Assembly: GCA_030280995.1 (NCBI GenBank) | Contig: JASXTE010000001.1 | Span: 15,099,001-15,163,000, forward strand | Length of the DNA: 64,000 bases | DNA from: Hemileia vastatrix | Lineage: Eukaryota; Basidiomycota; Pucciniomycetes; Pucciniales; Zaghouaniaceae | Direction: 5' to 3' | Made by a program: the position numbers and the translations under genes | Shown: piece after piece, positions 13,956 to 46,685 of the stretch | How positions within the stretch are numbered: position 1 is the stretch's first letter | How the letters are laid out: each line of letters starts with the position of its first letter | Notes under the pieces: model-generated | Told to the model about the DNA's origin: nothing | What the model saw: the letters and a program-made list of their open reading frames with translations, nothing else | The model's database searches: none

Positions 13956-14812
13956 CACCCGAGTTGATGTAAACCCTTGGTTTCTACACGATACTACTAA
14001 GCATATACCCTCTGGATCCAAACCTTCCTATAATCCTCCCAACACACCTTTACTTGAAGAAGATCAATCCCCTCCACCTTCTAACCATAGTTCAGCTGAA
14101 GATGATCCCAACTATCAAGCAGAACAATTATATCGCAGAAGATCTGAATCCTCAGAGGCCCAAAATTTAAATGTATGTTTACTTTTTGTTTTTTCTTCAA
14201 TTCTTCTCTGAAATTCTCTTTCTTTCTAGTCTCCTCCTACTCAAGCTCAATCTCCATTAAATAATCTCAATTCTGGAAATGTGAATACCTCTTTAGAAGC
14301 TGCTTTAGAAGAACTTCCTGAAGCCTCTTGTTCAAACTCCAAACTAAAGCGTCGAGCCTCAACTTCAATGAACTTGAACCATCTATTAAAACGTGGTAAT
14401 ACTTCAACAATCTCATTTGGCTCCCTTGAGGATTATTTTGAAAAAAAAGATATAAGTAAGTTTTGTTTACTATATATCTTAATCATTAACTCATTTATTT
14501 ATTTATTTCAATTTAATTTTCTCAGCGAAATCAACTATTGCAAATAATGCCCTTGACTTTGAGAAGATGAAGTTTGATCATATGCTAAGGAAAGATCAGC
14601 AAGCCTTAGATTTGGAAGAAAAAAAATTTGAGGTAGAGCAGATGGAAAGAGTAAATGACCGTCAATTTCAAAGAGAAATGGCTACTTGTGAATTGGAAAA
14701 ACAAGAGAGTTTTAAAAAAAAGATTTCATTATGGAATGTGTTAAAAATGGCCAATCTTATAAGGACATTAAAAAATTACTTGACCTTTTCAATTGATAAA
14801 TTGTTTTTCTAG
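13591..14812 (+). pseudogene. H1 Myb/SANT-type protein gene, Myb domain deleted
   Basis: Relic of the second Harbinger gene. The N-terminus starts at ATG 13591 (MPPRHSKSQK) and is duplicated at 13928. Compared with the H2 copy, the whole Myb/SANT-like DNA-binding region is missing: the N-terminus joins out of frame to the part aligned with H2 ADVNPVNML (here VDVNPWFLH, ~13965). Downstream exons persist: 13960-14170 (Ser/Pro/acid-rich), ~14230-14455 (LKRRASTSMNLNHLLKRG, FGSLEDYFEKKD) and 14526-14812 (coiled coil, DQQALDLEEKKFEVEQMERV), with GTAAGT and CAG splice signals between the last two. The intact protein would bind element ends and import transposase. Confidence 0.65.
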
Positions 14813-14984
14813 TTAATTTAATTTTGGTAATATTTTCTTATATGCTGACTTATAAAAGGAAAAGAATATAGTACGTTATTTTTGACAAAAATTTGAATGT
14901 ATAATAAAAATTTTCTATCTTTACTTTCTAGTCAATAAGTTTGCTTATCTAAATTTTTCTAAGTCATCAATTTCACATGTCAGA

Positions 14985-15135
14985 TTTAAAAATTTGGCAA
15001 TGCCCTCCCCTGCATTTTATTGAAACAAGGGGTGGGTACCACCAAATTTTTCTAAGTCATCAATTTCACATGTCAGATTTAAAAAATTGGCAATACCCTC
15101 CCCTGCATTTTATTGAAGTAAAGGGTGAAAGTCAT
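14985..15135 (-). repeat. Minisatellite, two units (H1)
   Basis: Two near-identical ~75-bp units containing CATTTTATTGAAG and a TTCACATGTCAGATTTAAAA block. The same minisatellite occurs at the equivalent place in H2, H3, H4 and H5. AATAAA reads on the minus strand, the strand of the (lost) oxygenase gene. Confidence 0.75.
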
Positions 15136-15459
15136 CAAAATACAATATAATTACATAAATTAATTAATATATAAATAAGATATGTCAAGTATACTACTTT
15201 TAAAGTAATGACAATTCCTTAAGCCAAAATGCAGATCAAGTCTAGAAACTAGGTTCAATGCAAAGTATTTTTTGAAGCAACTTATTTAAATAATACTTTA
15301 TTAAATTAAGTTGATCAATAAAGATTGATTGACAATATTGCAATTCTTAAATACAATAATTTTATTAAAAAATTTCAGATTACATATAAAAAAAATCAGT
15401 GACTTTTTCTATTACTTACAACTGTTTTTACAGAATTGAAAACTATGTTTCAGCTAATA

Positions 15460-16020
15460 TTTTATGGAAGTGAACTCTGTTCTTCGCCCGAAGAACAGAG
15501 TTCATCCTCCTATTTTCACACTCTGTTTAAAAAGAATAAAATGACTTACCTGGAGAGATGAGTTTAGAAAAAAGAAATATAAGTGAATGGAAGTGAACTC
15601 TGTTCTTTGCCCGAAGAACAGAGTTCATCCTCCTATTTTCACACTCTGTTTAAAAAGAATAAAATGACTTACCTGGAGAGATGAGTTGAGAAAAAAGAAA
15701 TATAAGTGAATGGAAGTGAACTCTGTTCTTCGCCCAAAGAACAGAGTTCATCCTCCTATTTTCACACTCTGTTTAAAAAGAATAAAATGACTTACCTGGA
15801 GAGATGAGTTGAGAAAAAAGAAATATAAGTGAATGGAAGTGAACTCTGTTCTTCGCCCGAAGAACAGAGTTCATCCTCCTATTTTCACACTCTGTTTAAA
15901 AAGAATAAAATGACTTACCTGGAGAGATGAGTTGAGAAAAAAGAAATATAAGTGAATGGAAGTGAACTCTGTTCTTTGCCCAAAGAACAGAGTTCATCCT
16001 CCTATTTTCACACTCTGTTT
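15460..16020 (-). repeat. 123-bp tandem array with perfect hairpins
   Basis: About four and a half copies of a 123-bp unit. Each holds a 32-nt inverted repeat, 15-bp arms around CC, starting GAACTCTGTTCTTCG (15472, 15595, 15718, 15841, 15964). A sixth copy is at 13761. The rest of the unit includes AAAATGACTTACCTGGAGAG, which on the minus strand is the exon end and GTAAGT donor of the oxygenase gene leader seen in H2 (near 19757). So the array grew from that leader, not from a CRISPR. Confidence 0.9.
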
Positions 16021-16147
16021 GCACCAATCTCCATCCCTTTCAATTCTATCAACACATGCTTGTCTTCCCTCTCCATGCCTTTCGCTATCCTCCCAGCCCC
16101 ATTGTATGCCATCCTCTTTTGATCCCCATTTCACCCCTCTCAACCTC

Positions 16148-16188
16148 TCGGCGGACTTGCTAGCAAGTCCGCCCCCCATATTGCATGA
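16148..16188 (+). repeat. Orphan end of a CACTA-type MITE in H1
   Basis: GGCGGACTTGCTAGCAAGTC followed by CGCCCCCCATATTGCATGATG matches the right end of the MITEs at 52342-52602 and 61162-61422. No second end is seen. Next to it (16195-16255) lies an inverted repeat ACTTAACGAT / ATCGTTAAGT. Confidence 0.6.
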
Positions 16189-16254
16189 TGTTAATGAACG
16201 ATTAGCTGAAATCGTTCAATAACTTAACGATTTGTTAACGAATCGTTAAGTGAA

Positions 16255-16520
16255 GGTTAAGGGGGGGTAGGAGGGATATGAGGGAGGATTTGGGGGAGTT
16301 TTGAGGGGGATAGGAGGGGGGTTTGGAGGGGGGGTTAGAGGCGTGTTTGGTGGGGATTTGGTGGGAGGATTTGGGGGATTTGGTGGGGGGTGGAGTGGAA
16401 TGAGGGGAAGATATGAGGAGACCAAGAAGGGGGAGATAGGGAGAGATGAGACCAAAGAGGGAGAAAAGGGAGGTTAGAGTGAGCCAAGGAGGGGTGAATG
16501 AGGCAGCCAAAGGGGGGAAA
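16255..16520 (+). repeat. G-rich polypurine tract
   Basis: Roughly 265 bp of almost pure purine on the plus strand, made of GGGGG, GGAGGG and GGGGAT runs, fused to the transposase frame at its right edge. Translations of this tract are proline-rich low complexity and are not credible genes. Confidence 0.8.
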
Positions 16521-17004
16521 AGGGGGATGATTCCAAGGAGTTGATGGCAGTGATACATCGTTTGGTATAAGTGTTAACTGAACCATACCCTAAATCAAAG
16601 ACATTTTCTAAACGTTTCAAAGCGGCTCCATTACCATTTGAACCCAAATGGCATAGTGTGATGGCCAATTGAATTGAAGGATGTCGTTGTTCTTTTTGAG
16701 AATTATTGTGAAATATGGGATGATCCTGAATAAGCTCAAGCAATTTAAGGAAAAATTCCTGAGAAGTCCTGAACAGCTGTCTAAAACTGGGTGTAGATAG
16801 GTTAAGAAGTGTTTGGATGGTGTACTTGGGGGTATGAAGTACTTGAGGCTTTCTGGGAAGAAGGTAACGTTTCCTGGCCATTTTTGATAAAACGACAAAA
16901 TCTTCTTCTAGATCAGAATCGGAATCAGAGTCCAAGAGCAGTTCAAGCGCCATGAAAGTCATTGCTTTATGTAATTTATCACGATTTGAAAGTGAGGAAG
17001 GCAT
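16474..17004 (-). pseudogene. H1 transposase, N-terminal part
   Basis: The 176-residue minus ORF starting at 17004 aligns with the H2 transposase N-terminus: acidic DSDSDSDLEEDF, FRQLFRTSQEFFLKLLELI, DHPIFHNNS, LGSNGNGAALKRLENVFDLGYGS, YTKRCITAI. This is the helix-turn-helix-like region ahead of the DDE core in PIF/Harbinger transposases. After ~residue 160 it runs into the polypurine tract, so the catalytic domain is gone. Confidence 0.8.
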
Positions 17005-17315
17005 GACTCTTATATGATATGATATGAAGATGTAAGTGATGTACGATGTTTTGAGTTATGAAGTGTTATTCTGCAGAGTGCTGCGTATGAATGGGATGAT
17101 GCTGACAAATCAGTGAAATGGGACTTGATGGTGAAATCAGCACTTTTGGTTGAGAAAGTGCGGATTTGAGTGAAATAAGTGACTTATTTCATTTTGAAAT
17201 CCACCAGTATTGGGGCTAGTGTGTTTTGGAAATCCGCACTTATTTAAGTGCGGATTTGGTCAAATTTAAGTGCGGATTTGTAAGTGCGGATTTGCCAGAA
17301 CTGACACCCCCTAAT

Positions 17316-17790: not shown

Positions 17791-18199
17791 CACTACACTA
17801 AAAGTGTGATATACCAAATAGGGGGTATCAATGTTCAGGGATCCGCAATTAGGGATCAGGATTTTTTTTTCCCGGGATCAGACATTATTAATTGCGAAGG
17901 ATTCTTATTCACTAGTCCCAGGGCTAGTGGATAAGAAATCCACGATAATGCATTATCCCGCCTCTTATACCCCAATTTCCATTCCTAATTCCTGATCCCA
18001 AACTCATCTCATCCATGATGGATTTGCAAGAAAGTCACATGACTCATAATTGCTGATGACATCCTTAAGTCTTTCCTCACTCTATGCTACTTAATTTTGG
18101 TGGGGAACACTTAAGTTTTTTTTCTATCTACACACCCCAACTGCACATTTGGCGGTGAATTCCCACTTCCCTCATCACTTAACCTTTCCACTGGCAACA

Positions 18200-19459
18200 A
18201 TGAAACACCTCTCTACTAGGAAGCTACTTCACTCAACAATGAATGCTATTACTTTTCTTTTAGTTCTTTACTATAAATCTGACTCTGATTTGGAAGATGC
18301 TTTAGCTTATATGTGTTTTCTTTCCAAAAAGTGTTACATCATCACCAGGGGGCCAAATCTTTATCATGATCCCCGATATGATCTGGCCTCCATCCTCAAC
18401 ATTCCTCATTTAAACTTCACACAACTTTTTAGAACTTCTCCCGATTCTTTCTTCAAACTTTATCAACTCATCTCCAATCATCCTATCTTCCATAACAATT
18501 CTCATAACAAACAGTGTAATCCTGCCATCCAACTTGCTGTTGCTCTATGTCGCTTTGGCTCAAATGGAAATGGTGCTGCCGTAAGACGTTTGGATAATCT
18601 CTTTAACATAGGATATGGTACCGTGATATTATACACCAAGCGCTGTATGATTGCTATCCTTTCCCTCAAGTCTCAAACTCTTGCTTGGCCAACTCCAGAA
18701 CAGCGACTTGAATCCTCTCAAGTAATGCAAGCTGAAGGTTTCCCTGGCTGTATAGGTTTTGTTGATGGTACAACCATCCCTTTGAGTCAAAAGCCTGCTC
18801 ATGATGGCAACCATTATTTTGATTGCAAAAAAAGGTTTCTTCAAAATCTCCTCCAAGTTCTCATCTTTCACAATCTAACTTTTTATCTTCTTTCTAGATA
18901 CTCTATTGCCGTTCAACTTGTATGCGATGTCAATAAAAAATTTATTGCTTTTCACAGTGGCTGCCCTGGATCATGTCATGACTCTTCTGTCTTCCAAAGA
19001 ATGAGGATTTCTCAATCCCCTGACTCATACTTTGACGAATCTCAGTACCTCCTTGCAGACTCAGCATATGCAAGTGGAAAGTAAATTATACCTGCTTTCC
19101 ATGGTGCAAATTTAGAAAATGACCCCAAAACTAAATTTAATTATCACCTTGCACAATCAAGAGTACGAATTGAACATGCTATAGGTATTTTAAAGGGACA
19201 ATTTTCTAGTCTTCAGGAGCTCAGAATCCAATTTCAAAAAAAATTGGAGATCAAAACTGCAAATCATTAGATCTTGACTTGCTTAATACTCCACAATATT
19301 CTAGCTGATTTAAAGGATGAGTGGAATGATCTTTATGAAGAAGAGGATCCTGAACCACCACTGGCACTCCCCTCCCTTGATTCACAAATCATTCAATCAA
19401 CCGGCATACGCCCCATTATAATGCCAATTACTCTCCAACATTTCTCTTCACCCTTTTAA
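18200..19459 (+). pseudogene. Harbinger transposase (DDE_Tnp_4 type), two nonsense codons
   Basis: Start ATG 18200 (MKHLSTRK), chosen because H1 and H4 align from there. Exon 1 ends at 18834; a 63-nt intron (18835-18897, GT...TAG, stop-free) precedes exon 2. N-terminal half: NHPIFHNNS, FGSNGNGAAVRRLDNLF, YTKRCMIAI. Catalytic triad: first Asp in GFVDGTTIPLSQKP, second in LLADSAYASG, Glu in RVRIEHAIGILKGQF. TAA at 19082-19084 (H4 has a Tyr codon) and TAG at 19268-19270 (H4 has Trp) interrupt it. It would cut and paste the element at AAT targets. The rest is well preserved, so loss is recent. Confidence 0.85.
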
Positions 19460-19479
19460 TTTTTTATTTTTATGTTTTC

Positions 19480-20703
19480 ATACTTTCCAAATGTCCTCTT
19501 TGTGTACTTTAATCACTTGGTTTTGTATTTTGGTTTGTTGCATATTCATTTTTTTTTGAATTTACGGTGAATATCTTTTTTTTGGATGGCTCATTGGTTT
19601 TCTTTCACCAGCTCAACATGAAATCGCATATTTTCTGAAATTGCATATTTTGTCAGTGATTTTTTTTTTCATTCATCCCTCATATCCTTTTCCTATTCTC
19701 CTCCAACATCCCTCAAACAATTTGGTTTCATTCATTTTGTCATCTCATCTCTCCAGGTAAGTCATTTTATTCTTTTTTTTTGATTTTTTGATTACTAATT
19801 ATAATTTTTTTTGTTTTTTTCTGTTTATTTTATTTTTTTTATCTAAATTTTTTTTGTAAGTGGTTATTTTGGATTTCAATGGTATAATTAACCTTTTTTT
19901 TCTCTCCCTCTTTACTTTATTTTTTAGCTCCATCACCCTACTCTTCATCCCTCCTTGGCATTGTCATTATCCCCCCTTTCCCTTATTTCACTTTTTTTTG
20001 GCTCCATTTCATTGAAACACATACATTGCACATTCTTTATGCATTTCACTTACTCCATATTCAATTTCCCCACAATTCCAACATCAATCTTTCTCACTCT
20101 ATTTTTCCTACTTTTCAATCAAGGTAAGTTTCATCTCCTTTTTTTCATGCCTATATGATATCTCATTCCTTTTATGAAAACTTCATACTTAAATATATGT
20201 ATGACTCTTATCTGGATAACAGTGAACTTATAAAACTCCTTTTGATCTCATCTTCATTACCACTTTTAAAGTTTTTGTAAAATTTTGAAAATCAGACTCG
20301 GAATTAGGGTTAGGTTTATTCAAATCTAATGTTCTTTTTACTGAAGATTCTCCTGAAGGCTACCTTTCATTTCCTGCAAACAGATTTGAATTTGATTCAA
20401 TGGTTGCTGAGATATTGACCGTTAAAGTTGAGCCTTTTTTTTCCCAATTTAAATTTTTATTTCATTTTTTTATGTAACAAATTAGGGTTAGGTTTATTTA
20501 AATCGCATGTCCTTTAACTGAAGATTCTACAAAAGCATATCTTTCATTTTGCACAAACAGGTTTGAATTAGGTTCAGTGGTTGCTGAGATTTTGACCTTT
20601 GAAGTTGAGCCTTTTTTCCAAATTTCACTTGTCTTATTTCACATTTTTATATTGCATATTTAGAGGATAAGGATTCTGAAACTCTTATATGATTATTATC
20701 TAG
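19480..20703 (+). other. Leader and introns of the H2 oxygenase gene
   Basis: Likely 5' untranslated exons. One ends CATCTCATCTCTCCAG followed by GTAAGT (19757). The next runs from TTTTTTAG (~19928) to CAATCAAG followed by GTAAGT (~20123). Equivalent sequence is in H4 (31535-32770) and almost unchanged in H6 (62770-64000). Two repeat units (next entry) follow before the acceptor at 20703. Confidence 0.55.
20285..20640 (+). repeat. Two units of the 'TTAGGG / AEIL' repeat (H2)
   Basis: Two ~185-bp units, each starting TTAGGGTTAGG (telomere-like) and ending GTTGCTGAGATwTTGACC...GTTGAGCC. One frame stays open over ~35 codons in both (YLSFPANRFEF, VVAEILTVKVEP). The same unit occurs in H3, H4, H5 and H6 with varying copy number. 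Confidence 0.75.
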
Positions 20704-21633
20704 GCATTTCAATTATATAGGCATATATTCGTTGGTCAAGAATATCACTAAAGCTCAAAAAGATGAAGATTTTTGCTTATGGGACACTCTACCTTCCTTT
20801 GACTCTTTTCTTGCTTTTCAACTCAACAAGCTCTGTAATAAAGCATTTGAAAAAAATCATGAACTTGCAACCAAAGTTGGAATACCGAATTGGTGTGACT
20901 CCGAATTGGAAGATATCAGCCACGAATATCTTTTATTTTCTAATGTTATTATCACTCATTCTGGATTCCACAATAGGATTCATATCGATAGGAATGATGC
21001 CAATTTTCTTACTTTTGGAATATTCTCATATATCAATCCGATAACTGGCCACCCAATACCATCTCCAGCTAAAATCAAAGGACATGGTTTATATTTTCCA
21101 GACCACCGGTGCATCATTGATTTTGGTTTGGGAAATGGTATCATCGAAACTATTTGGAATTCTTCTAAGGATAATCATCAAACGACCAAAGCTCCTCCTG
21201 GTTTGGAATCCTGTCAAGATTTCACTCATTTCGGTTGCTCATTTCAAATCAGTAATAAGTTGATACAAAGAATCAATAAGGTAAAGTTATTCAATTTAAA
21301 AAAACTTTATCTAGATCCAAAAAGTATGGGGATTAGAGTTGTCATCGAAAATTTTATATTTTTTCATAAATTTTTAATAAATATTTTTTATATATCAATT
21401 TTCTCAAGTAATGTGATGAGCCATCAACCTTGTGTTGTATAACAGGTAATCATGATAACATTTATTTGTTTCATGGGGTTCCTCTTGCCTATACCTGTGG
21501 AAAGTCCCAAACTTTTGTTTCTCGACTTGGTCTGCATTTTGGCTTGAGGGATTGTCATTACTTTAAACTAGGGAAATTGATATATATTAGATATTTATTT
21601 AATAATTTATGTAATTATATTAAATTTAGATGA
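20704..21633 (+). CDS. TET/JBP-like 2-oxoglutarate Fe(II) oxygenase carried by H2
   Basis: Exon 20704-21280 follows an acceptor TATCTAG; intron 21281-21420 (GTAAAG...GATGAG); exon 21421-21633 ends in a stop. The protein shows THSGFHNRIHIDRNDANFLT with the iron-binding HxD, then GHGLYFPDH, IIDFGLGNGIIETIW, DNHQT (second iron His), FTHFGCSFQIS and C-terminal ITGNHDNIYLFHG, AYTCGKSQTF. Order and spacing match the TET/JBP-like oxygenase family expanded in rust fungi. Known relatives oxidise 5-methylpyrimidines in DNA; activity here is unproven. The position usually held by the 2OG-binding Arg (before FGCS) is His in H2, H3 and H4 alike. No internal stop. The first coding exon is unassigned because no ATG is in frame upstream of the acceptor. 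Confidence 0.68.
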
Positions 21634-22040
21634 CTTCCACCCCTTACTTCAATAAAATGCAGGGGGGGGTATTGCCAAATTTTCAAATCTGACATGTGAA
21701 ATTGATGACTTAGAAAAATTTTGGTGATACCCACCCCTTGCTTCAATAAAATGCAGGGGAGAGTATTGCCAATTTTTTTAAACAGATATAGAATTTTTTT
21801 GACTTGTAAATATTTTTGTGATACCCGTCCCTTACTTCAATAAAATCCATGGGGGGTTGTGCCAAAATTTCTTATAAGACTCGTGAAATTCTTGACATGT
21901 AAGAATTTTTGGGATACCGGTAAAATGCAGGGGGTAGTAAAGCCAAATTTTCATATAAAACTTTCAAGATTCATGACATGAAAGAATTTTTGTGATACCC
22001 ACCCTTTACTTCAAAAAAATCCAGGGTCGGGGGATTGTCA
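21634..22040 (+). repeat. Minisatellite between convergent genes (H2)
   Basis: About five units of ~85-100 bp, each with CTTCAATAAAATGCAGGGG and a GTGATACCCACCCC block. AATAAA reads in the oxygenase direction, so the array supplies serial poly(A)-type signals just after its stop codon. Confidence 0.8.
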
Positions 22041-22184
22041 AATTTTCAAAGGAGACTTGAAAATTTTATTTAAAAAAAGAATATTTAACATTAAAATACA
22101 ATATTTCAAGAAATACAGAAAATAATTGTAAAATTTATGTACAAATAAATATGAACACATGAAGTGAGAAAGAAATAAAAGAAA

Positions 22185-23588
22185 CTAGTCAACAAAAAAT
22201 TTCATTAAACGTTCTATTTCTTCAACAGATTTGTTTGCTTTAATGCATTTGATCAAGAAATCTTTCTTTTTAGAACTTTCTTGGAGATCATGCTTATACT
22301 TCATCTGTTCCATTAAGTTTTGATGCTCGAGTGTTTTTTCCTTATTTTTTGATTTTTCAATACTAAGAGTTAACTCAAACTTCTTCTCCTCCAAATCTTG
22401 GGCCCTACCATCCTTCTGTAAAGAGAGCTCAAACTTCTTCTCCTCCAAATTTTGGATCCGATCATCCTTCCGTAAGGAGAGCTCATACTTCCTCTCTTCC
22501 AAATCTTGTACTCTGTCATCCCTCCTTAAAGAGAGCTTGTATTTCTTCTTTTCAAAGCTCAGAGTCTCTTTAGCAATTTCCACTTGTTCTAGAGTGAGAA
22601 TAAAAATTAACATAAAGTAGAAGAAAAGCAGAGTAAAGTAATAAGAGTTATGATATCACTTACCAGCATCACGTTTCTCTAAAAACTGTTCCATCGAAGA
22701 AAAAGGTGTTTGTGATGAAGTATCACTTTTTCGTCTTCTTTGGGAGAGGAAATTTAGACTAGTTGAAGCCCTTCTCTTTTTGTTCAACGTAGCATTTTCC
22801 TCCTCATCATTGTCACTAGCTTCAGACTCAGTTGATTGAGGATCCTGGGTTTGTTCATCAGCCTTTTAAGAAATAAGAAAAAGATAAGTAAATAAAAAAT
22901 AGAATTGATAAGATAAAAGAAAAAAGAAACAGACCTGAGTTAGATTTGGTTGGGTTAAATCACCTATAGGATCTACAGAAACGCTATTTAGATATGTCTC
23001 ATTCAAATGAGGGGAGGCTTGAGTGGAGGAAGAGGATGGGAAAAGATTAGCTTAGACATCATGTTCGGAGATAGGATCTTCTCCATCCAACATGTTTACA
23101 GGATTAACATCAGCTCGCTCTCCAAAAATTGCATCCATCTCTTTAAAGTAAGGACATAAAGAATCAAGTTTATCGTCTATGGATTTTATGCCCTTAGTTA
23201 TATCATTGTCGGTAATCCCAAAACCAGTGGAAGATGAAAGAGCCTTTGCCTTCTTGTATTTTGCTCGGTAATGCTTGAAGCGTTCAGAAATCTGTTTAGG
23301 CAAAAGATCAATACTTCCCTTGGTCTTATTGCGTAATTCATTTGCCATTAGAAGATAGCCATTAACTTTTGATGCAGGGGGCCGTCCTACTTTAGTGGCA
23401 TACTCAGTACCAAAACAAGAATCATAGTTAGATTTGGTTTTCAGCCAGTTGATAAGAATGAGATGTTCATCTTTTTTTAATTGAACAATCTTTGATTTCT
23501 CAGCTGAGCGGGGGAAAGAGGAAGTAGTGGGAATTGAAGAACAACTGGGTGATGGCTGCCTTTGAGAAGATATAGGATGACGAGGCAT
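22185..23588 (-). pseudogene. Myb/SANT-like Harbinger protein with one nonsense codon (H2)
   Basis: Second standard Harbinger gene. Start ATG at 23588 (MPRHPISSQRQ). Exon 1 23588-22935, exon 2 22862-22665 (ends GCTG/GTAAGTG), exon 3 22588-22185. Exon 1 holds the Myb/SANT-like domain (LILINWLKTKSNYDSC, ISERFKHYRAKYKKAKAL, TGFGITDND). Exon 2 is Ser/acid-rich with a basic RRKRSD-like patch. Exon 3 is a coiled coil made of ~20-residue repeats (DLEERKYELSLRKDDR). TAA at 23052-23054 replaces the Lys codon seen in H3 and H4. The exon 1 donor is GTCTGT, weaker than GTAAGT in H3. Such proteins help transposase reach DNA and the nucleus. Confidence 0.75.
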
Positions 23589-24780
23589 GTTATTATAAAT
23601 GAAGATGAAAAGGAGCAGAAACAAGCAGATGAGATAGCGAGATGAAAAGGAGAAGAATCAAATAGATGAAATGGGGAGAAATTCTGAGCGGATAGAATGA
23701 ACAGGATGGGATGAGAATGGAAGTGCGCAGCAAGGTAGAAGGCTGGGATATCCAGAAAGTTGTCCAAGATGTGGTTATAGAAAATTGAGTAAAAAAATGT
23801 TGGATAAGAGGTGAACATTGACACGTAAAGTGTCTAATAACCCAATTATTAGCAAAAATAATTGCCAAAGATAATTGGGGTATGCAGATTATTTTCCACA
23901 ATTAATTTAATTGCGGATCAGTCAACATTGATACCCCCTAATAGGTACATTCTCAGGTAGGTTGGGTATGTTATAGGGGGGGAATGCCATTGAGGGATTT
24001 TCTTCAAAAAAATTATAAAATTTTACAAGAATGAAAAAAATTATTATCTCCCAAAAATTAAGGCTTTTTTAGCCCAATAATGATGTTTTTTTCCAAAAAA
24101 AAATTAAAAATAAAAATAAATAAATAATTCAAATTCAAATTAAAGAAAAAAAAATTGATGAAACATGTTACTCTATAAATAATTTTTTTTTAAATCTACT
24201 CAACTCATCCATGATTATACCTGTGGGTCACCTCACACTTTCAGTGTGGGGATAATGGATATATCACACTTTGGATGTAGTGTTTCTCCCTTCTGATATT
24301 AAAAAAAACTTGATTTTCTTGATTTCAAGACAAATACAAGATGTTTTCAAAACCTCCCACCTTCTGGGATCTATGAAAAAATGTGATTTTTTGCAAATTT
24401 TTCTCCCTTATAATAGGGGGTATCAAAGTTGAACAATTCACAATTAAACTAATTTTGAATAAAATTCCTTATACCCCAATTATCTTCCACAATGATTTTT
24501 GCTAATAATTGGGTTATTTGAAACTTTATGTGTCAAAGTAGACCTCTCATCTAACATTTTTCTACTCAATATTTCATAGAAACATATTGGACAACTTTCT
24601 GTCATAACCATATCTTGGCCTACTTTCATTAATAGCCACATCTTTGACTACTCTCTGGATATGCCTTCTACCTTGCTTCACACTCCCATTCTCATCTCAT
24701 CCTGTCTATTCTTTCCATTCAGAACACTTCTCTATCTCATCTGCTTGTTTTTGCTCCTTTTCATCTTCAATTATCTTAAC

Positions 24781-26122
24781 ATGCCCCATCATCATAGATC
24801 TTCTCAAAGGCAGCCTTCCCCCAGTTGTTCTTTAAATTGCACTACTTCCTCCTTCCCCCGCTCAGCCAAGAAATTAAAGAACTTTCATATAAAAAAAGAT
24901 GATCATCTCATCTTATCAACTGGCTGAAAACTAAATCTAACTATGATTCTTGTTTTGGTAGTGAAAATTTAACTAAAATAGGACAGCTCCCCACATCCAA
25001 AGCTAATGTTTATCTACTAATGGCCCATGAATTACAGAATAAGACCAAGGGAAGGATAGATATTTTACCCAAAGATATTTCTGAACATTTCATGAATAAC
25101 TGAGTCAAATACAAGAAGGCAAAGACTCTTTCATCTGCCACTTGTTTTGGTATTACCAACATCAATATGAGTAAGGGCATAGAATCCATAAATGATAAAC
25201 TTGAATCTTTATGTCCTTACTTTAAAGAGATTGATTCTATTTTTGAAGAACAATCTGATGTTAATCATGCAAACATCTTGTATGGTGAATATTCTATCTC
25301 CAAAAATGATGTCAAAACAAATATTTTCCCATCTTCTTTCTCCACTCAAGCCTCCCCTGTTCTAAATTCAACGGATCTAGATAGCTTTACTGTAGATCCT
25401 TATGGCAATTTAAGCCAACTCAATCTAACTCAAGTAAGTTTTTTTCTTTTATCTTACCAATTCTTTTTTTTATTTAAATTTTCTTATTTCTTACAAGGCT
25501 GAAGAACAAATGCAGGAGCCACAATCAACTGAGTCTGAAGCCAGAAACAATGATGAGCAGGAAAATTTGACCTTGAACAAAAAGCAAAGGGCTTCAAGTA
25601 GTCTAAACTTTTACTCTCAAAGAAGAATAAAAAGTGATACTTCATCTCAAACTCCTTTTTCTTCTATCAAAGAATATTTGGAGAAATGTGATGCTGGTAA
25701 GTGATACCATACCTCTTAATACTTTACTCTGCTTTTCTTCTACTTTTTGTTAATCTTTTTATCACTCTTAAAAAAGTGGAAGTTTCTAAAGAGACTCTAA
25801 AGTTTGAAAAGCAAAAATACAAGCTCTTTATAAGGAGGGATGATATAATAAAAGACTTGGAGGAGAGGAAGTATGAGCTCTCTTTATGGAAGGATGATAG
25901 GGCACAAGACTTGGAGGAGAAGAAATTTCGAGCTAACTCTTAGTATTGAAAAATCAAAGAAAGAGGAGAAAACAGTTGAGCATCAAAACTTAATATAACA
26001 GATGAAATTTAAGCAAGATCTCAAAGAAAATTCAAAGAAGAAAAAAATTTTAATGGAATGTGCTAAAGCCAATAAAGCTTATGAGGAAATTGAATGTCTA
26101 ATGAAATTTTTTAATGACTAGT
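24781..26122 (+). pseudogene. H3 Myb/SANT-like gene relic
   Basis: Start ATG 24781 (MPHHHRSSQRQPSPSCS). A frameshift near 24925 separates IKKDDHLIL from INWLKTKSNYDSCFG, and a stop interrupts the SERFKHY-equivalent region (~25100). 25167-25435 (SKGIESINDKLESLCPYF...) ends at GTAAGT. Exon 2 25500-25696 (AEEQMQEPQSTESEA..., EYLEKCDAG) ends GTAAGTG. Exon 3 from ~25777 is the coiled coil (DLEERKYELSLWKDDRAQDL) with a frameshift near 25930, ending 26122. Same architecture as H2. Confidence 0.75.
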
Positions 26123-26279
26123 GTTTTTACTTCTTTCATACTTCAACTATTTATAATTATTTTTACATTAAATTTTAGAATAATTTCCTGTATTTCATTA
26201 ATCTATCCATCATTAGTTGAAGTTTTGTATTTTAATGTTAAAAATTCTTTTTTAAATAAATTTTTCAAGTCTCATTTGA

Positions 26280-26710
26280 AAATTTTCCAATCCACCTTTC
26301 CTGAATTTTCTTGAAGTAAGGGGTGGGTATCACCAAAATTCTTTCAGTTCAAGAATCTTGAAAGTCTTACATGAAAAACTAGCATTACTACCCCCTGAAT
26401 TTTATAGGTATCACCAAAATTCTTTCAAGTTAAGAATTTTGCAAGTCTTTTAAGAAGTTTTGGCAATACTTCCCCCTGCATTTTATTGAATTAAGGGACA
26501 GGTATCACCAAAAATTCAAGTCAAAAATTTTTCAAGTCTGATATGAAAATTTTGCAATACCCCCCCCCACCCCTGCATTTTATTGAAGTAAGGGATGGTT
26601 ATCACCAAAATTTTTACAAGTCAAAAATTTTACATTTCAGATTAGAAAATTTGGCAATACCCCCCCCCCTGAATTTTATTGAAGTAAGGGGTGGATATCA
26701 CCAAAATTTA
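26280..26710 (-). repeat. Minisatellite, five to six units (H3)
   Basis: Units of ~75-90 bp with CATTTTATTGAAGTAAGGGG and a GGTATCACCAAAATT block. Longest C runs are at 26558 and 26661. Homologous to the arrays in H1, H2, H4 and H5 and inverted relative to H2, in step with the inverted genes. Confidence 0.8.
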
Positions 26711-26814
26711 ATATAATTTCATAAATTAATATATAAACAACTAATATATATCAATTTCCCTAGTTTTAAATTAATTACAATTCCTCCCACCAAAATGTGG
26801 ACCAAGTCTTGAAG

Positions 26815-27545
26815 CTAAGTTTGGGACTTTCCACAGGTATAGACAAGATGAACCCCATGAAACAATTTAATTTTATCATGACTAATTTTTATACAACACA
26901 AGGTTGTTGGCCAATTACTTTACTTTAGAAATTAGAAATATAAGAGTTATTTATAAAATATTTATGAAAAAATAAGAAATATTTGATGACTCTACTCATC
27001 CCTATACTTTTTTGATCTACTTAAAGTTTCTTTATATTTGTTAAATTTACCTTTTTTTTACCTTTTTTATTTGGTGGATTAATTTTTGACTTATTTGAAG
27101 AGAACATCCAAAATGTGTGAAGTCTTGACAAGATTCCAAGCCAGATGGAGCTTTGATTGTTTGGTGATGATCCTGAGAAGAGTTCCATATTGTTTTGATC
27201 ATGCCATTTCCCAAACCAAAATTAATCATGCACTGATATTCTTAAAAATATAAGCCATGTCCTTTGACTATGGCTGGAGATGGTATTGGTTGGCCATTTA
27301 TCAGATTGATATATGAGAAAATTCCAAAAGTAAGATAATTGGTGTCACTCTTATCAATATGAATCTTATTGTGGAATCCTGAATGAGTAATAATAAAATT
27401 TGAAAATAAAAGATATTGGTTGCTAATTTCTTACCATTCTAGGTCACACCAATTTGGTAATCAAACTTTGGTAGCAAGTTGATGATTCTTTTTGAAATCT
27501 TTATTGCAGAGTTTTTGACGCAAAGAGAAAGAAAATTATTAAAAG
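26815..27545 (-). pseudogene. H3 TET-like oxygenase relic
   Basis: Minus-strand copy of the H2 oxygenase. The C-terminal exon is at 26815-26920 (FHGVHL, YTCGKSQT). The catalytic exon includes 27047-27229 (INFGLGNGMIKTIWNSSQDHHQT, FTHFGCSLQIS). Upstream a TAA interrupts GHGLYF, and the HxD region is at ~27340-27370 in another frame. Nonfunctional. Confidence 0.7.
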
Positions 27546-27699
27546 AAGGTAAGGTGTCCCATAAGCAAAAATTGTCATCTTTTTCAGCTTTAGATAATTT
27601 TTTAAGTTAAGAATAGATGCCTATGGAAATAAAATGAGTGAAATGAATTTAAGAATGAAACATATATTATCATACATACCAAAATAGCCTTTAACAAAT

Positions 27700-28345
27700 C
27701 CTAGTCTAAACATGAAATAAATTATGTGAAATTTAGAAAAAAGGCTCAACTTTAAAGGTAAATATCTCAGCAACCACAGAACCAAATTCAAATCCATTTA
27801 TAGTAAATTAAAGATAGGCTTTAGAAGAATCTTCAGCTATAAGAACATAAGATTTAAATAAACCTAACCCTAATTTTGACTCTGATTTTTAAAATTGCAC
27901 TAAAATTTGAAAATTGATGATGAAAATTCCAAAAATATGGAGATATAAGCCTAGATAATCATCAGATAAAAGTTTCAGAAGCCTTATTATCTAATTATTC
28001 ATTATAAAAACATAAAATAAATTAAGTAACATTTGGAGAAAAAGGCTCAACTTTTAAAGTCAAAATCTCAGCAATCACTGGACCAAATTCAAGCCTGTTT
28101 GTGGGAAATGAAAGATAGGCTTCAGGAGAATATTTAGTTAAATTACATGTGACTTAAATAAACCTAACCCTAATTTGTTACATAAAAATATGAAATAAAA
28201 AAAATTAAATTGGGAAAAAATGGTGCAAATTTAAAGATCAATATCTCAGCAACCACTGAACAAAATTCAAATCTGTTTGTGGGAAATGAAAGGTAGTCTT
28301 CAGGATAATCTTCAGTTGAAAGAGCATTATATTTAAATAAACTTA
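27700..28345 (-). repeat. 'TTAGGG / AEIL' repeat, three units (H3)
   Basis: Units starting near 27742, 28048 and 28230 share TCTCAGCAACCACTG and end in AAACCTAACCCTAAT. Read on the minus strand the ~35-codon open frame is kept (YLSFPTNRLEF, IAEILTLKVEP). Confidence 0.75.
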
Positions 28346-29182
28346 ACCCTAATTCTAAGTCTGATTTTCGGAATTTTAAAAAAACTTGAAAAGTGGTGAT
28401 GGAGATGAGAACAAGAAGAGTTTAATAAGTCCACTGTTATCCAGATAAAAGTCATGCATATATTTAAGTATGAAATTTTTGTAGAAGGAAAGAGATATCA
28501 TTTAGGCATAAAAAAAAGAGATGAAACTTACCTTGATTGAAAAGAATAAAAATAGAGTGAGAAAGAATGATGTTGGAATTTGGGGGAAATCGAATATGGA
28601 GTAAGTGAAATGCATAAAGAATGTTCAATGTATGTGTTTTAATGACATGTAACCAAAAAAAAGTATAATAGGGAAAAGGGGGATAATGACCATGCCAAGG
28701 AGGAATGATGAGTAGAGTGATGGGGCTAAAAAAGAAAGAAAAGAGGGAGAGAAAAAGAATGTTAATTTTGCCATAAAAATCAAAAATAACCACTTACAAA
28801 AAAATTTAGATACAAAAAAGAAAGTAAAAACAGGAGAAAAACCAAAAAAAAAGTATAATTAGCAATCAAAAATCAAAAAAATGAATAAAATGACTTACCT
28901 GGAGAGATGAGATGATAAAATCAATAAAATCAAATTTTTTAGGGATTTTTGAGGAGAGAAGAAAAGGATATGAGGGATGAATGAAAATATAAACAGTGAA
29001 AAATTATGCAATTGGAGAAAATATTTGATTTCATGTTGAGGTGGTGAATGAAAACAAATGAAAAATCCAGAAAAGTGACATTCAGTGTAAATTCAAAATA
29101 AAAATGAATTTGAAAAAAAAAATCACCAAACCAAGTGAATAAATCAAAAAAGCTGAAAATCTGGAAATTATGAAAAAAAAAA

Positions 29183-29443
29183 TTAAAAGGATTGTGTTTC
29201 AAAATGTTGGAGGGTGATTGGCATAATGACAGAGCGTATGCTGGTGGAAATAATGTTTTTTAATTCAAGGGAGGGAAGATCTGTACAGTTTTGGGATCCT
29301 CTTCTTTATAAACATCATTGAAAATACATATAAGCTAAAGTGTCTTCCAAACCCAAGTCAGAATCAGAGTCAGCAGCTAAAGTTAAAGTGATAGCATTCA
29401 TAGCTGAGTGAAGTTGTTTCCTAGTAGAGAGATGCTTTATTAT
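29183..29443 (-). pseudogene. H3 transposase, internally deleted
   Basis: The N-terminal ~40 residues (KHLSTRKQLHSAMNAI, SDSDLGLEDTLAYM) fuse near 29330 to the C-terminal tail (KEEDP..., MPITLQHF). About 1 kb with the whole DDE core is gone. The equivalent of the H2 start ATG is ATA. Confidence 0.7.
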
Positions 29444-30275
29444 TGTCATTAGAGGGTGTAGATGATGAGTTGGAAGTGGGAATTTACCACAAAATGAGCA
29501 GGTGGGGTGTGTAAATAGAAAAAATGTTATGTGTTCACCACCAAAATTAAGTAGCATAGAGTGAAGAGACACATAAGGATGAGAAAAAATGTTAAGTTTT
29601 TGCCACCAAAATCAAGTAGCATAGAGTGAGGAAAGACTTAAGGATGGCATCAGCAATTATAAGTCATGTGAGGTTCTTAAAAATCCATTATGGATATGAT
29701 GAGTTTGCAATCAGTAATTAGGAATTGAAATTGGGGTATAAGAGGTGGGATAATGCATTATTGTGGATTCCTTATCCGCTAGCCCTGGGGCTAGTGGATA
29801 AGAATCTTCCACAATTAATAATAGGGGGTATCAATTTTCAGGGATCCACAACTAGGTATCAGGACTTTATTTCCTGGGACCAGACATTATTAGATGCTGA
29901 AGATTCTTATCCACTAGCCCCAGGGCTAGTGGATACCAAATCCACGATAATGCATTATCACGCCTCTTATACCCCAATTTCCATTCCTAATTCCTGATCC
30001 CAAACTCATCACAACCATGATGGATTCTTAAGAAAGTCACATGACTTATAATTGCTGATGCCATCCTTAAGTCTTTCATCACTCTATGATACTACTTTTT
30101 GGTGGTGAAAAAATAACATTTTTTCTCATCCTTATGTGTCTCTTCACTCTATGATACTTAATCTTGGTGGTGAACACATAACATTTTTTTCTATCTACAC
30201 ACCCCACCTGATCATTTGGTGGCAAATTCACACTTCCCACTTTCAACTCATCACCTAAACCTTCTACTGACAATA

Positions 30276-31534
30276 ATGAAGCACCTCTCTACTAGGAAGC
30301 AACTTCACTCAGCTATGAATGCTATCATTTTAGTTTTAGCTGCTGACTCTGATTCTGACTCTGGTTTGGAAGATGCTTTAGCTTATATGTCTTATCTTTC
30401 AAAAAAGTGTTACATCGACTCAAGGGGAAAAATCTTTATCATGATCCCAGATATGATCTCCTCTCCATTCTCAACATTCCTCAACTAAACTTCACTTAAC
30501 TATTTGGAACTTCTCCTAATTCTTTTTCTTACTTTCTCAACTCATCTCCGATCATCCAACTTTTCATAATAATTTCCATAATAAATGGTGTGACCCTAAA
30601 GTTTAACTTTCTGTAGCACTATGTCGCTTTGGTTCAAATGGAAATGGTGCTGCTGTAAGACATTTAGATAATCTCTTTACCATAGGATATGGTACCATCA
30701 TTCTATACACCAAGTGCTGCATGATTTCTATCCTTTCTCTCAAGTCTCAAACACTTGCTTGGCCAACTCCACAACAGTGACTTGAATCCTCTCAAGTAAT
30801 ACAAGCCAAAGTTTTCCCTGGATGGGTAGGTTCTGTTGATGCTACAACTATACCTTTGAGTAAAAAGCCTACTCATGATGGCAGTCATTATTTTGATTGC
30901 AAAAAAAGGTTTCTTCAAAATGTTCTCCAATTTCTCATCTTTCATAAACTAACTTTTTATCTTCTTTGTAGATACTCTATTGCTGTTCAACCTCTGTGAA
31001 ATCAACAAAAAGTTCATTGCTTTTCATAGCGGCTTTCCCAGCTCATTTCATGACTCTTCTGTCCTCCAAAGAATGAGGATTTCTCAAAGTCCTGACCCAT
31101 ACTTTGAAAAATCTCAGTACCTCCTTGCAGACTCAGCATATGCAAGTGGAAAGTACATTATACCTGCTTTCTGTGGTGAAACCTTAGAAAATGGCCCCAT
31201 AACCACCTTTAATTATCACCTGGCTTAATCAAGAGTACAGATCGAAAATACTATTGGGATTTTAAAGGGAATATTTTCTAGTCTCTGGGAACTCAGAATC
31301 CAATTTCAAAAAAATATTTAAATAAAAACTGCAAATCATTGGATAATCACTTGTGTTATACTCAACAATATCCTAGCTGATTTAAAGGATTAGTGGAATG
31401 ATCTTTATGAAGAAGAGGATCCTGAACCAGAACCAGCTCACCCATTCCTTGAATCACAAAACAATCATTCAACCAGCATACGCTCTCTCATTATGCCAAT
31501 CACCCTCCAACATTTTGACACACAACCCTTTTAA
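30276..31534 (+). pseudogene. H4 transposase relic
   Basis: Aligned to H2 from ATG 30276 (MKHLSTRKQLHSAMNAI). Several stops and frameshifts fall between ~30480 and 30970. The first catalytic Asp region reads SVDATTIPLSKKP (shifted). Later blocks are intact: INKKFIAFHS, LLADSAYASGKYIIPAF, RVQIENTIGILKG (Glu kept, His to Asn), TANHWIITC, MPITLQHF. More decayed than H2. Confidence 0.8.
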
Positions 31535-32770
31535 TTTTTTGTCTTCATACTCTCCAAGTGTCCACTTTGTATACTTTATTCACTTGGCCTGGTATTTTTG
31601 TTTGTTGTATATTCATTTTTTTTTTGAATTTATGGTGAATATCTCTTTTTTGGATGGCTCATTGGTTTTCTTTCACCAGCTCAACATGACATTGCATATT
31701 TTCTGAAATCACATAATTTTTCACTGTTTCTTTTTTTCATTCATCCCTCATATCCTTCTCCTCTTCTCCTCCAACATCCCTCAAACAATTTGGTTTCATT
31801 TATTTTCTCATCTCATCTCTCCAGATAAGTCATTTTATTCTTTTTTTGATTTTTTGATTACTAATTTTTTTTTGTTTTTTTTCTGTTTTTTTTTTTATTT
31901 TTTGTAAGTGGTTATTTTTGATTTCAATGGTAAAATTAACCTTTTTTTTTCTCTCCCTCTTTACTTTCTTTTTTAGCTCCACCACCCTACTCTTTATCCC
32001 TCCTTGGCATGGTCATTATCCCCCCTTTCCCCTATTTCACTTTTTTTGGCTCCATGTCATTAAAAGACATACAATGCACATTCTTTATGCATTTCACTTA
32101 CTCCATATACAATTTCCCCACAATTCCAACATCAATCTTTCTCACTCTATTTTTCCTACTTTTCAATCAAGGTAAGTTTCATCTCCTTTTTTTCATGCCT
32201 ATATGATATCTCATTCCTTTTATGAAAATTTCATACTTAAATATATGTATGACTCTTATTTGGATAACAGTGAACTTATTAAACTCATTTTGTTCTCATC
32301 TCCATTACCATTCTTCAAGTTTTTGTAAAATTTTGAAAATCAGACTCGGAATTCGGGTTCCAATTATTCAAATCTAATGTTATTTTTACTATAGATTCTC
32401 CTGAAGGCTACCTTTCATTTCTCACAAACAGATTTGAATTTGGTTCAGTGGTTGCTGAGATATTTACCATTAAAGTTGAGCCTTTGTTTCCTAATTTAAA
32501 TTTTTATTTCATTTTTTTATGTAACAAATTAGGGTTAGGTTTATTTAAATCACATGTCCTTTAATTGAAGATTTTACTAAAGCCTATCTCTTATTTACCA
32601 CAAACAGGTTTGAATTAGGTTCAGTGGTTGCTGAGATTTCGACCTTTGAAGTTGAGCCTTTTTATCTAAATTTCACTTATCTTATTTCACGTTTTTATAT
32701 TGCAAAATTAGAGAATAAGGATTCTGAAACTCTTATCTGATTATTATCTAGGCTTTTATCTCCCTCTTTT
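31535..32770 (+). other. H4 oxygenase leader with two repeat units
   Basis: Matches the H2 leader 19480-20703: donors after CATCTCATCTCTCCAG (~31827) and CAATCAAG (~32171), then two 'TTAGGG / AEIL' units (~32345-32490, ~32525-32660). The first unit has lost the TTAGGG. Confidence 0.55.
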
Positions 32771-32839
32771 TGGACTTTTCATCATCACTGTTCAAGTTTT
32801 TGTGCAAATTTGAAAATTTGCTTCTAATGTCACAGTAAC

Positions 32840-33480
32840 CTTTGGTGGTTTTTATAACAAAATTCACATGGATAAAAATGATCTCAACTCACTCACATTT
32901 GTAATATTCTCATACATTAATCCAAAAACTGGTCTTACTTACCCCTCACCCTCCTCTTCTACAAAAGGCCATGGTCTATACTTTCCAGACCATTGATGCA
33001 TTATTGACTTTGGAACAGGAAATGGAATAATTGCAGGAAATTTGTATTCAAATCTTCACAATCACCAGATGACTAAAGCACTACCTGGCTTAGAATCCTG
33101 TGATGAATTCACACATTTCTGATGTTCATTTCAAATCAATAGGGAGTTGGTCAATAAGATTGATAAGGTAAGAAAAAAGGTGAGGTTAAACAAATAACAT
33201 TAGGTAGAAAGAAAAAGTATGGGGTGTAATATAGGTTGTCAAAATTTATTTTTATTTCACAAATTAACATTTTACAAGTCATATATGATAATCTAATTAC
33301 CTAAATTAATGAACCATCGGCCATTTGTTGTATAATGGTAATCATGAGGAAATATTTTTTTCTCATGGGGTTCATGTATACATTTGTGTTTGATTTAATT
33401 GACTTTGGTCACAGACAATTTCCACTCACATTTTTACTTGAATTGTCATTAAATTAGGTTTGTTAATTATCTTATAAGAC
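32840..33480 (+). pseudogene. H4 TET-like oxygenase relic
   Basis: Keeps NKIHMDKNDLNSLTF with the HxD, KGHGLYFPDH, CIIDFGTGNGII, NHQMTKALPGLESC, FTHF and CSFQINRELVNKIDK, but TGA codons split it after PDH and after FTHF. The region N-terminal to THSGF is missing. The C-terminal exon near 33330-33400 is degenerate. Confidence 0.7.
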
Positions 33481-33524
33481 TTGTTTTCATGTTAATTTAT
33501 GCAATGAACATAAATTTTGGAAAT

Positions 33525-33660
33525 CTATGCCCCTACTTCAATAAAACACAGGGGAGGGTATTGCCATTTTTTTTCATAAATTTTTTTCTTAACTAGAAAA
33601 AAAATGGTGATCCCCACCCCCTGTTATGGTAAATAGCAGGGCAGGGTATTGTCAAAAAAC
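33525..33660 (+). repeat. Minisatellite, two units (H4)
   Basis: CTTCAATAAAACACAGGGG and a decayed second unit, in the same place and orientation as in H2. Confidence 0.6.
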
Positions 33661-33829
33661 AATTAGTGACACTCTAAAGTTCAGGAGAGAGGATTGTTAG
33701 CAGTTCACCCCTAGATTTTTCATGGTGAATCTTTCAAATCTCAGTGAGGAGTGTGTGCCAAAGATTGATTATTAGCCTTAATGCATTCTATCAAGAAAAC
33801 TTTGTAAAAAAAATAAAAAAAACTAGTTA

Positions 33830-35128
33830 TCAAAAATTTTCATTAAGTGTTCAATTTCCTCAATAGATTTATTAGCTTTAACACAATCTCTCAAGAAATC
33901 ATTCTTTTTGAACCTTCTTCAAGCTGATACTTGAGTTTTATTTGATCCAATAGGAAATTGTACTCAAGAGCCTTCTCCTCTTTCTTTATCTCAATTTTCT
34001 TCTCCTCCAAGTCATGTGCCCTCTCATTCCTCTTTAAAGAAATCTAGAATTTCTTCTCCTCCAAGTCTTGTGCCCTATCATCCCTTTTTAAAGAGAGCGC
34101 ATATTGTTTCTTTTGAAAGTTGAGAGTATCTCTTGCAACTTCAACTTTACCTAGAGTGAAAAGTAATATTAACAAAAGAAAAGAAAGGCTCACTTAATTA
34201 TTAAGAGGTATGCTATCACTTACCAGATTCACGTTTCTCCAGAAAATCATCAATGGAAGAAAAAGGGGTTTGTGAAAAAATATCTCTGTTTTGCTTTCTA
34301 TGACTGTTGAAATTCAAAGTAGTTGATGGTCTTTGCTTTTTTTTGGTGGTAACAGTCTCCTCTTCATCATTGATGCTAGCTTCAGACTCACTTGCTTGAG
34401 GATCCTGGGTTCATTCATTGGCCTTTTTAGAAATAAAAAAATAAAACAGCTAGAGAAGAAATATAAACTTACTGGAGTGGGATCATGTTGGTTTATATCA
34501 CCATAAGGATCTATTGGAAAGCTATCTAGATTTGTTGAATTTAGAACAGGGGAGGCTTGAGTGGAGGAAGAGGATGAGATAAGATTTCTTTTGACATCAT
34601 GTTCAGAGATAGCATCTTCACCATCCAACATGTTGGCAGGATTAACATCAGCTCGCTCTCCAAAAATAGCATCCATCTCTTTAAAGTATGGACATAGTGA
34701 ATCAAGTTTATCATCTATGGATTTTATGCCCTTACTGATATTGATGTCAGTAATACCAAAACCAGTAGAAAATGAAAGAGTCTTTGCCTTCTTGTATTTG
34801 GCTTGGTAATGCTTGAAACGTTCAGACATCTGTTTAGGCAAAAGATTAATCCTTCCCTTTGTCTTATTTTGTAATTTATTGGCCATTAGAAGATAGCCAT
34901 TTACTTTTGATGCAGGGGGCCATCCTACTCTAGTTGCATTCTCAGTACCAAAACAAGAATCATAATTAGTTTTTTATTTTTAGCCAGTTGATAAGTATGA
35001 GATGATTGTCTTTTTTTTAGTTGAAAAGTCTTTGATTCCTCAGCTGAGCAGGGGAAAGAGGGAGTAATGGCATTCAAAGAAAAACTGGGTGAAGGCTGCC
35101 TTTGAGAAGATCTATGACAACAAGGCAT
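33830..35128 (-). pseudogene. H4 Myb/SANT-like gene relic
   Basis: Start ATG 35128 (MPCCHRSSQRQPSPSFS). A frameshift after the QLKK stretch and stops near 34970 break the Myb region. From 34886 the frame is good (MSERFKHYQAKYKKAK, GFGITDINISKGIKSIDDKL, DVKRNLISSSSS) to a GTAAGT donor at ~34473. Exon 2 (~34427-34227) has one stop. The coiled-coil exon (~34150-33830) is degraded. Confidence 0.72.
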
Positions 35129-35506
35129 GTTGAGATACTTGAAGATGAAAAGGAGAAGAAAAAAACAGATGGGATGGGGAAGGGTTTTGAACAGAAATGA
35201 TTAGACAGGATGGGAGTGTGCAGCAAGGTAGGGGGGCTGGCACATCTAGAAAGTTGTCCAAGATGTGGCTATGAAAAATTGAGGATAAAAATGTCAGATA
35301 GAGGTGAACATTGACACGTAAAAGGTCTAATAACCCAATGATTAGCAAAAATAATGGTGGAAGATAATTGGGGTATAATGATTTTTATCTGCAATTGATT
35401 TAATTGCAGATTGGTCGGTCAACATTGATACCCCCTAATGTCTGATTCTGGGGAAAAAAAATCATGATCCCTAATTGCAGATCCCTCAACTTTGATACCC
35501 CCTAAT

Positions 35507-46484: not shown

Positions 46485-46685
46485 AGGGGGTATCAAAGTT
46501 AGAAATTTGTAATTATTTAAAAGGTATTTCACAGCACAAAAAGAAAGCCACAAACTTGACATTGATTCTTACTAAAAAGTAGTTTTTAGGGAAACAATAT
46601 GGCATACTTTAAAAAATAATCATGGTTAATTTGATGGAAAAAAGAGGTATTTTGAAATGGAAGATGTGTAACTTTGATACCCCCT
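46485..46685. mobile_element. MITE with Harbinger-type ends
   Basis: 201 bp. Ends AGGGGGTATCAAAGTTA and TAACTTTGATACCCCCT, flanked by ATT (46482-46484, 46686-46688). The termini match element H3 (AGGGGGTATCAAAGTTGA), so it is probably mobilised by that transposase. Interior AT-rich, no ORF. Confidence 0.9.

Follow-up and report, generated by a model that had tools for sequence, protein, structure and literature searches.

In a 64,000-nucleotide stretch of the genome of the coffee leaf rust Hemileia vastatrix (family Zaghouaniaceae; contig JASXTE010000001.1, positions 15,099,001 to 15,163,000, hereafter the window), we identified a Harbinger-type DNA transposon at positions 17820–23939 that carries a gene for a TET-like oxygenase between its transposase gene and a Myb-like gene. 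It is likely that this element is a degenerate member of a large family with recent activity, that the family moves into AWT targets (W, A or T), that a subset of it holds the TET-like gene as a cassette, and that the encoded enzyme would oxidise 5-methylcytosine (5mC) and so relieve CpG methylation, probably in trans. The element is flanked by AAT on both sides and has the ends AGGGGGTATCAATGTT...AACATTGATACCCCCT; transposase and oxygenase are encoded on the plus strand, Myb/SANT-like and coiled-coil parts on the minus strand. Its features, in window coordinates, are:

17817..17819: left target-site duplication, AAT (3-bp reading, from covariation and the empty sites of copy L037)
17820..17851, plus strand: 5′ terminal inverted repeat, exact over 16 bases and, after a 5-base mismatch, over another 11; the ends recur in other copies
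18200..19459, plus strand: transposase gene (DDE_Tnp_4 by Pfam), with one likely intron near 18836–18898, read from the sequence
19857..22111, plus strand: exchangeable middle segment, with left borders at about 19856–19925 and the right border at 22112 (eight siblings) or 21784 (four others)
20717..21280, plus strand: main coding part of the TET-like oxygenase (PF20515 core 20747–21193, HxD, IIDFG..NGI.E)
21430..21633, plus strand: conserved C-terminal oxygenase segment in a different frame, which probably represents the following exon; like pieces adjoin other oxygenase copies
22188..22613, minus strand: coiled-coil coding part that probably forms exon 2 of the Myb-like gene
23055..23591, minus strand: Myb/SANT-like coding part (PF13837, under cut-off)
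23908..23939, minus strand: 3′ terminal inverted repeat
23940..23942: right target-site duplication, AAT

As expected of a PIF/Harbinger element, Pfam matched DDE_Tnp_4 to positions 18149–19081 (E = 4.4e-11; 43.1 bits against a cut-off of 24.8). The window copy's transposase is interrupted by two in-frame stops (codons 62 and 124 of the part 18899–19459); the same part is open in four of five matched comparison copies (L040, L041, L042 and L043; L-numbers denote other loci in the genome) and holds one stop in L037. The third gene looks weakly Myb-like: Myb_DNA-bind_4 (PF13837) matched 23055–23624 with an E-value of 2.7e-4, but with 21.7 bits against a cut-off of 27. Matches of this kind (E = 2e-4 to 2.4e-3) were obtained in all seven near-complete copies scanned, the window's included and every one below cut-off, and PF13837 did not match the eighth scanned sequence, a partial piece of the related element H3 (see below). 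No Myb structure was found among the 13 weak PDB matches of the Myb-like protein, whose fold model had a mean predicted local distance difference test (pLDDT) score of 44.

Searches covered 747.6 Mb of the H. vastatrix genome (the Race I assembly is reported at 747.98 Mb with a GC content of 33.78%, with PacBio and DNBseq reads under accessions SRR22911636 and SRR22911637; PMC10652848). A first look returned 3666 candidates for the oxygenase, 4610 for the transposase and 4460 for the Myb part, numbers that refer to candidates rather than confirmed copies. Among the 40 scored for each, all oxygenase copies were at least 96% and all transposase and Myb copies at least 98% identical to the corresponding window part; copies so alike point to recent amplification. 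Of eight further oxygenase copies that were fetched, three (L037, L040 and L042) lie in elements elsewhere that align with the window's over its full length at 92.9–98.3% identity. Among the other five, L038 retains the two ends but has an internal deletion, and in four no 5′ end was recognised within the fetched stretch. The gene combination that a sequence-only reading of the window had proposed, namely a Harbinger element with a TET-like oxygenase between transposase and Myb-like gene, thus recurs as a unit.

The oxygenase itself was identified by Pfam, which matched PF20515 ('Tet-like 2OG-Fe(II) oxygenase') to positions 20732–21439 (E = 3.3e-28; 99.6 bits against a cut-off of 27). This bears out an assignment previously made from HxD, a second His and an IDFG-GIIE-IW block. 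HxD and the block IIDFG..NGI.E recur across a 15-row alignment of copies, with L166 alone having N in place of the D of HxD. CcTET, NgTET1 and human TET are 5mC oxidases; the rust protein shares the HxD motif with them and, going by the name that Pfam gives to PF20515, is related to them at family level, but differs in having no sequence match in the PDB. Genome-wide, 150 oxygenase loci were scored among 10849 first-look candidates, and all 150 lay above the PF20515 cut-off. Other Tet-like copies (L001–L030) form several classes, whose identity to the window copy ranges from 97% down to about 51%, and coiled-coil parts of the window element's family adjoin some of them. Oxygenase copies also differ in length: 25 of the 40 scored are 12–13 bp longer than that of the window, and sister copies (e.g. 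L041, L166 and L026) have about 185 additional N-terminal residues, to which no match was found in the window copy or its closest relatives.

Between subfamilies, the oxygenase is under strong protein-level constraint. Over the main exon, window and L017 differ at 76 of 116 synonymous but only 46 of 448 non-synonymous sites (p = 1e-32), corresponding to a non-synonymous rate (dN) of 0.11, a synonymous rate (dS) of about 1.6, which is near saturation, and a dN/dS of 0.07. Comparisons of the window copy with L017, L021, L028, L013 and L026 gave ratios of 0.06–0.09, that with H3 gave 0.18, and that with L042, both being short-form oxygenases, gave 0.27 (p = 0.004). Among close copies, dN/dS of the oxygenase was scattered (0.11 to 1.0 or undefined), as expected after insertion, and for transposase and Myb it varied between about 0.3 and more than 1. 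The constraint between subfamilies argues that the protein was kept by selection over long periods, even though the element of the window copy is broken.

The oxygenase is present in a subset of the family. Both element ends, the spacer and the slot of the oxygenase were examined in 20 transposase copies (rows 3–22 of the list, with the window, L037 and 18 lower rows set aside), a sample of the nearest in transposase rather than a random one. A 5′ end was recognised in 19 of these copies and oxygenase sequence in six (rows 3, 4, 9, 10, 12 and 17), with the match in row 3 stopping at window position 21254 and row 12 possibly being nested. The 14 non-carriers comprised eight with other sequence joined at window position 22112, five of a second type (join seen at 21784 in four; row 6 linked by its middle segment), and one with a deletion (row 22). 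No oxygenase match was found between transposase and 3′ end in any of the 14, all of which kept the Myb and coiled-coil parts and the 3′ end, detected as matches. In the copies printed, the replacement middle segments contain only short open frames. As non-carriers keep the other parts and the ends, the middle segment behaves as an exchangeable cassette.

The flanks of the element follow the pattern ...AWTA/GGGGG...CCCCC/TAWT..., which can be read either as a TA duplication or as an AWT duplication next to a terminal A and T. If the duplication were TA, the W bases on the two sides should be independent. They were compared in 40 copies of a miniature inverted-repeat transposable element (MITE), made up of 39 copies elsewhere and the following one in the window:

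46485..46685: 200-base MITE with ATT flanks and terminal repeats like those of the element

This MITE yielded 1190 first-look genome candidates, and the 40 copies scored were 91–100% identical. Their W pairs were A/A in 19 copies, T/T in 16, T/A in two, A/T in one and included G in two (Fisher p = 1.5e-7, or 1.9e-7 when counting only once L069 and L070, whose identical flanks may reflect one duplicated insertion). Matched AAT or ATT was present on both sides in 33 of the 40 MITEs and not in seven; in 38, both flanks read TA even though the duplication is AWT. Large copies agreed: both ends could be read in 19 of the 29 examined (the window, the eight fetched and the 20 sampled), i.e. in the window, L037, L038, L040, L042 and sampled copies including rows 4 and 22, and all 19 had matching flanks (11 AAT and 8 ATT). 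Moreover, L037 is inserted in a repeat whose empty form at four other loci (L111, L113, L119 and L121) is AATTCAATGTGGGC, with a single AAT, and, with at most one difference allowed, none of the empty-site sequences examined for L037 agrees with the TA model. Middle-base covariation and empty sites that fit AAT only rule out a TA duplication for this family. The sequence-only reading was therefore right to describe one element with matched ends and an AAT duplication, and the TA published for a related lineage (see below) should be checked.

The copies also bear a record of CpG loss. In the window, the observed/expected ratio was 0.32 for CpG and 0.92 for GpC. C-to-T differences among copies affected 36 of 420 CpG sites vs. 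46 of 4425 other cytosines, and 47 of 320 vs. 21 of 2863 in the oxygenase exon; per site, this is 8–20 times the level of other cytosines when all changes among copies are counted. Changes private to one copy showed an excess of about 4-fold (11/714 vs. 23/6446, and 6/414 vs. 17/4870), and the majority sequence of the 40 MITE copies contains no CpG. Transposable elements of Austropuccinia have been reported to be CpG-hypermethylated, with depletion by deamination (PMC12774611). Decay at CpG as in methylated DNA suggests that copies of the element were methylated at these sites, and thus that a substrate for a TET enzyme probably was present.

Judging from element structure and insertion footprints, transposase and Myb-like protein would probably act together in inserting elements that end in AGGGGG...CCCCCT at AWT targets; MITEs whose ends are similar were probably moved too. 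The TET-like oxygenase, carried as a putative cassette between the transposase and Myb-like genes in a subset of elements, would most likely oxidise 5mC, thereby relieving CpG methylation. Because near-identical siblings without the oxygenase keep the same layout and also spread, the enzyme probably serves the family in trans rather than only its own copy.

Several observations weigh against this proposal. Demethylation of 5mC by the oxygenase is inferred from sequence; the window's oxygenase subfamily, which is without the N-terminal match of about 185 residues, may be inactive, its dN/dS of 0.27 against L042 notwithstanding; and a model of the relative L017 reached a mean pLDDT of only 36, with no solved structure in the PDB matching the oxygenase by sequence. 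Nor were carriers clearly spared relative to non-carriers. CpG changes amounted to 20/240 in 12 carriers vs. 16/180 in nine non-carriers (p = 0.80) in one comparison, and to 40/294 in ten carriers vs. 21/420 in 14 non-carriers in the other, with carriers being the more changed (p = 7e-5). Both counts rely on the majority base and their direction shifts with the copies included, which is why we put weight on private changes; of these, CpG accounted for 9 of 55 in carriers vs. 2 of 31 in non-carriers (p = 0.31), and for 5 of 54 vs. 1 of 17 (p = 1.0). One measure pointed the opposite way, as CpG made up 20 of 189 changes in carriers vs. 16 of 43 in non-carriers, the carriers here including diverged subfamilies. 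Overall, there was no clear sign that carriers are spared from CpG loss, in a test of low power. The earlier suggestion that the oxygenase reverses silencing methylation remains a proposal: CpG decay suggests methylated copies, but carriers are not clearly spared and non-carriers keep the same layout.

The same data can be accommodated by a gene without service to its element, if Harbinger elements freely pick up and exchange middle segments and the oxygenase is neutral cargo. This would account for the 14 of 20 transposase-nearest copies that do without it while all keeping the Myb and coiled-coil parts and the 3′ end, for the other segments with short open frames in its slot (in the copies printed), and for the lack of clear CpG sparing. 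The constraint between oxygenase subfamilies (dN/dS 0.06–0.09; 0.18 for H3) speaks against neutrality, which we deem unlikely. Alternatively, the enzyme may produce a modified base (5-hydroxymethylcytosine or another) that marks or protects element DNA instead of erasing methylation, given that some TET/JBP relatives hypermodify bases (PMC12730594); Pfam scans of the element's coding parts, however, named no further DNA-modifying enzyme, and the chances of this scenario appear slim. The many Tet-like copies in the rust genome (the 150 scored among 10849 first-look candidates) could also raise the suspicion of a host gene repeatedly hit by Harbinger insertions, an outcome that the sequence-only reading had named as fatal to its view. 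Four copies (the window's, L037, L040 and L042), however, share both their ends and the place of the oxygenase inside them; their flanks differ, and it is the outer ends that are bordered by duplications. These copies contradict a host-gene origin, which we rejected as scarcely credible.

Related elements are found elsewhere in the window:

24415..29822, minus strand: H3, a related, inverted and broken element; its border near 29822 is known from alignment only
29823..35436, plus strand: H4, a related element with all three genes in the same order; its transposase has stops, and a second 3′-like end lies at 35503

The sequence-only reading had credited both with all three genes in the same order. 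For H4 this was confirmed, but H3 contains Myb, coiled-coil and oxygenase parts plus only a 49-residue transposase piece, being without the stretch that matches about 18320–19325 of the main element, i.e. most of the transposase. The two appear to meet head to head near 29822 (window 29320–30396). Identity between H4 and the main element was 64–82% for Myb pieces and 65–81% for transposase pieces, compared to 53% for the oxygenase and 37% for the coiled coil (longer piece), a hint of the same middle-segment exchange. Element fragments are located at 13.2–17.3 and 58.1–59.6 kb. The former comprise a sibling stretch (13220–17311) with ends GGGGGTGTCAGTTCTGGCA and matching AAT flanks; transposase, oxygenase and coiled-coil fragments are present in it, as is a tandem-like array (15464–16020). 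Outside this element, stretches 36469–39817 and 41616–45032, about 5 kb apart, are 64–70% alike over several segments and represent a diverged duplication.

The sequence-only reading took the pairing of Harbinger transposon and DNA base oxidase to be undescribed. It had, however, already been reported by Kojima 2025 (PMC12730594), who found that seven rust transposon lineages contain Tet-like genes, among them fifteen TET+ Harbinger families ('PHISTA') from six Puccinia/Austropuccinia species, and proposed the same role in escape from silencing. Likewise, the idea that Harbinger elements captured the oxidase independently is not borne out; that study infers transfers of Tet-like genes between transposon superfamilies. 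The word Hemileia does not occur in PMC12730594. PHISTA and the present family are alike in that single rust elements hold genes for a Harbinger-type transposase and a Tet-like oxygenase together with a third gene, and in the function proposed. They differ in that PHISTA, as described in the excerpted text, has TA duplications and a third protein without a Myb/SANT domain, whereas the Hemileia family has 3-bp AAT/ATT duplications and a weakly Myb/SANT-like third gene. In its 3-bp duplication and its transposase plus putative Myb/SANT-like protein, the family resembles Nuwa and canonical Harbinger elements, which are described as two-protein elements (PMC12730594; compared by description) and to which a subset of the Hemileia family adds the oxygenase. 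KDZ transposons (Kyakuja, Dileera, Zisupton) are likewise basidiomycete DNA transposons with a Tet-like gene, but belong to other transposase lineages and make 7–8 bp duplications (PMC12730594).

We did not file the family as PHISTA because the TA duplication that names this lineage was tested and not found; instead, the family shows the 3-bp duplication of canonical PIF/Harbinger elements. Nevertheless, we see an even chance that these elements are Kojima's PHISTA lineage, whose TA would then be the same misreading of AWT plus a terminal A or T, leaving little that is new but the host. The same kind of gene set, fungal order and superfamily speak for this identity, as does the fact that 38 of the 40 MITEs here read TA on both flanks despite their AWT duplication; the published TA duplications and lack of a Myb/SANT domain speak against it, in a comparison made by description only (PMC12730594). 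PHISTA itself may thus have a 3-bp duplication.

Beyond what the excerpts of PMC12730594 report, the present analysis adds the host, the 3-bp duplication, the weakly Myb-like third gene, the mix of carriers and non-carriers behind one transposase, the constraint on the oxygenase and the CpG test. The pairing of Harbinger element and TET-like gene is thereby extended to Hemileia (Zaghouaniaceae). Near-identical copies with and without the oxygenase in one genome constitute a natural control for asking whether transposons bring along a DNA demethylase of their own to evade silencing. It is conceivable, albeit doubtful as a joint claim, that a minority of rust Harbinger elements with a DNA-base oxidase serves an oxidase-less majority in trans, as a shared anti-silencing cassette, and that the TA published for TET+ Harbinger elements is a misframed 3-bp duplication. 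In the latter case, the TET+ Harbinger lineage would return to the ordinary Harbinger elements, and our 3-bp result provides specific grounds for a second look at the duplication after which PHISTA is named.

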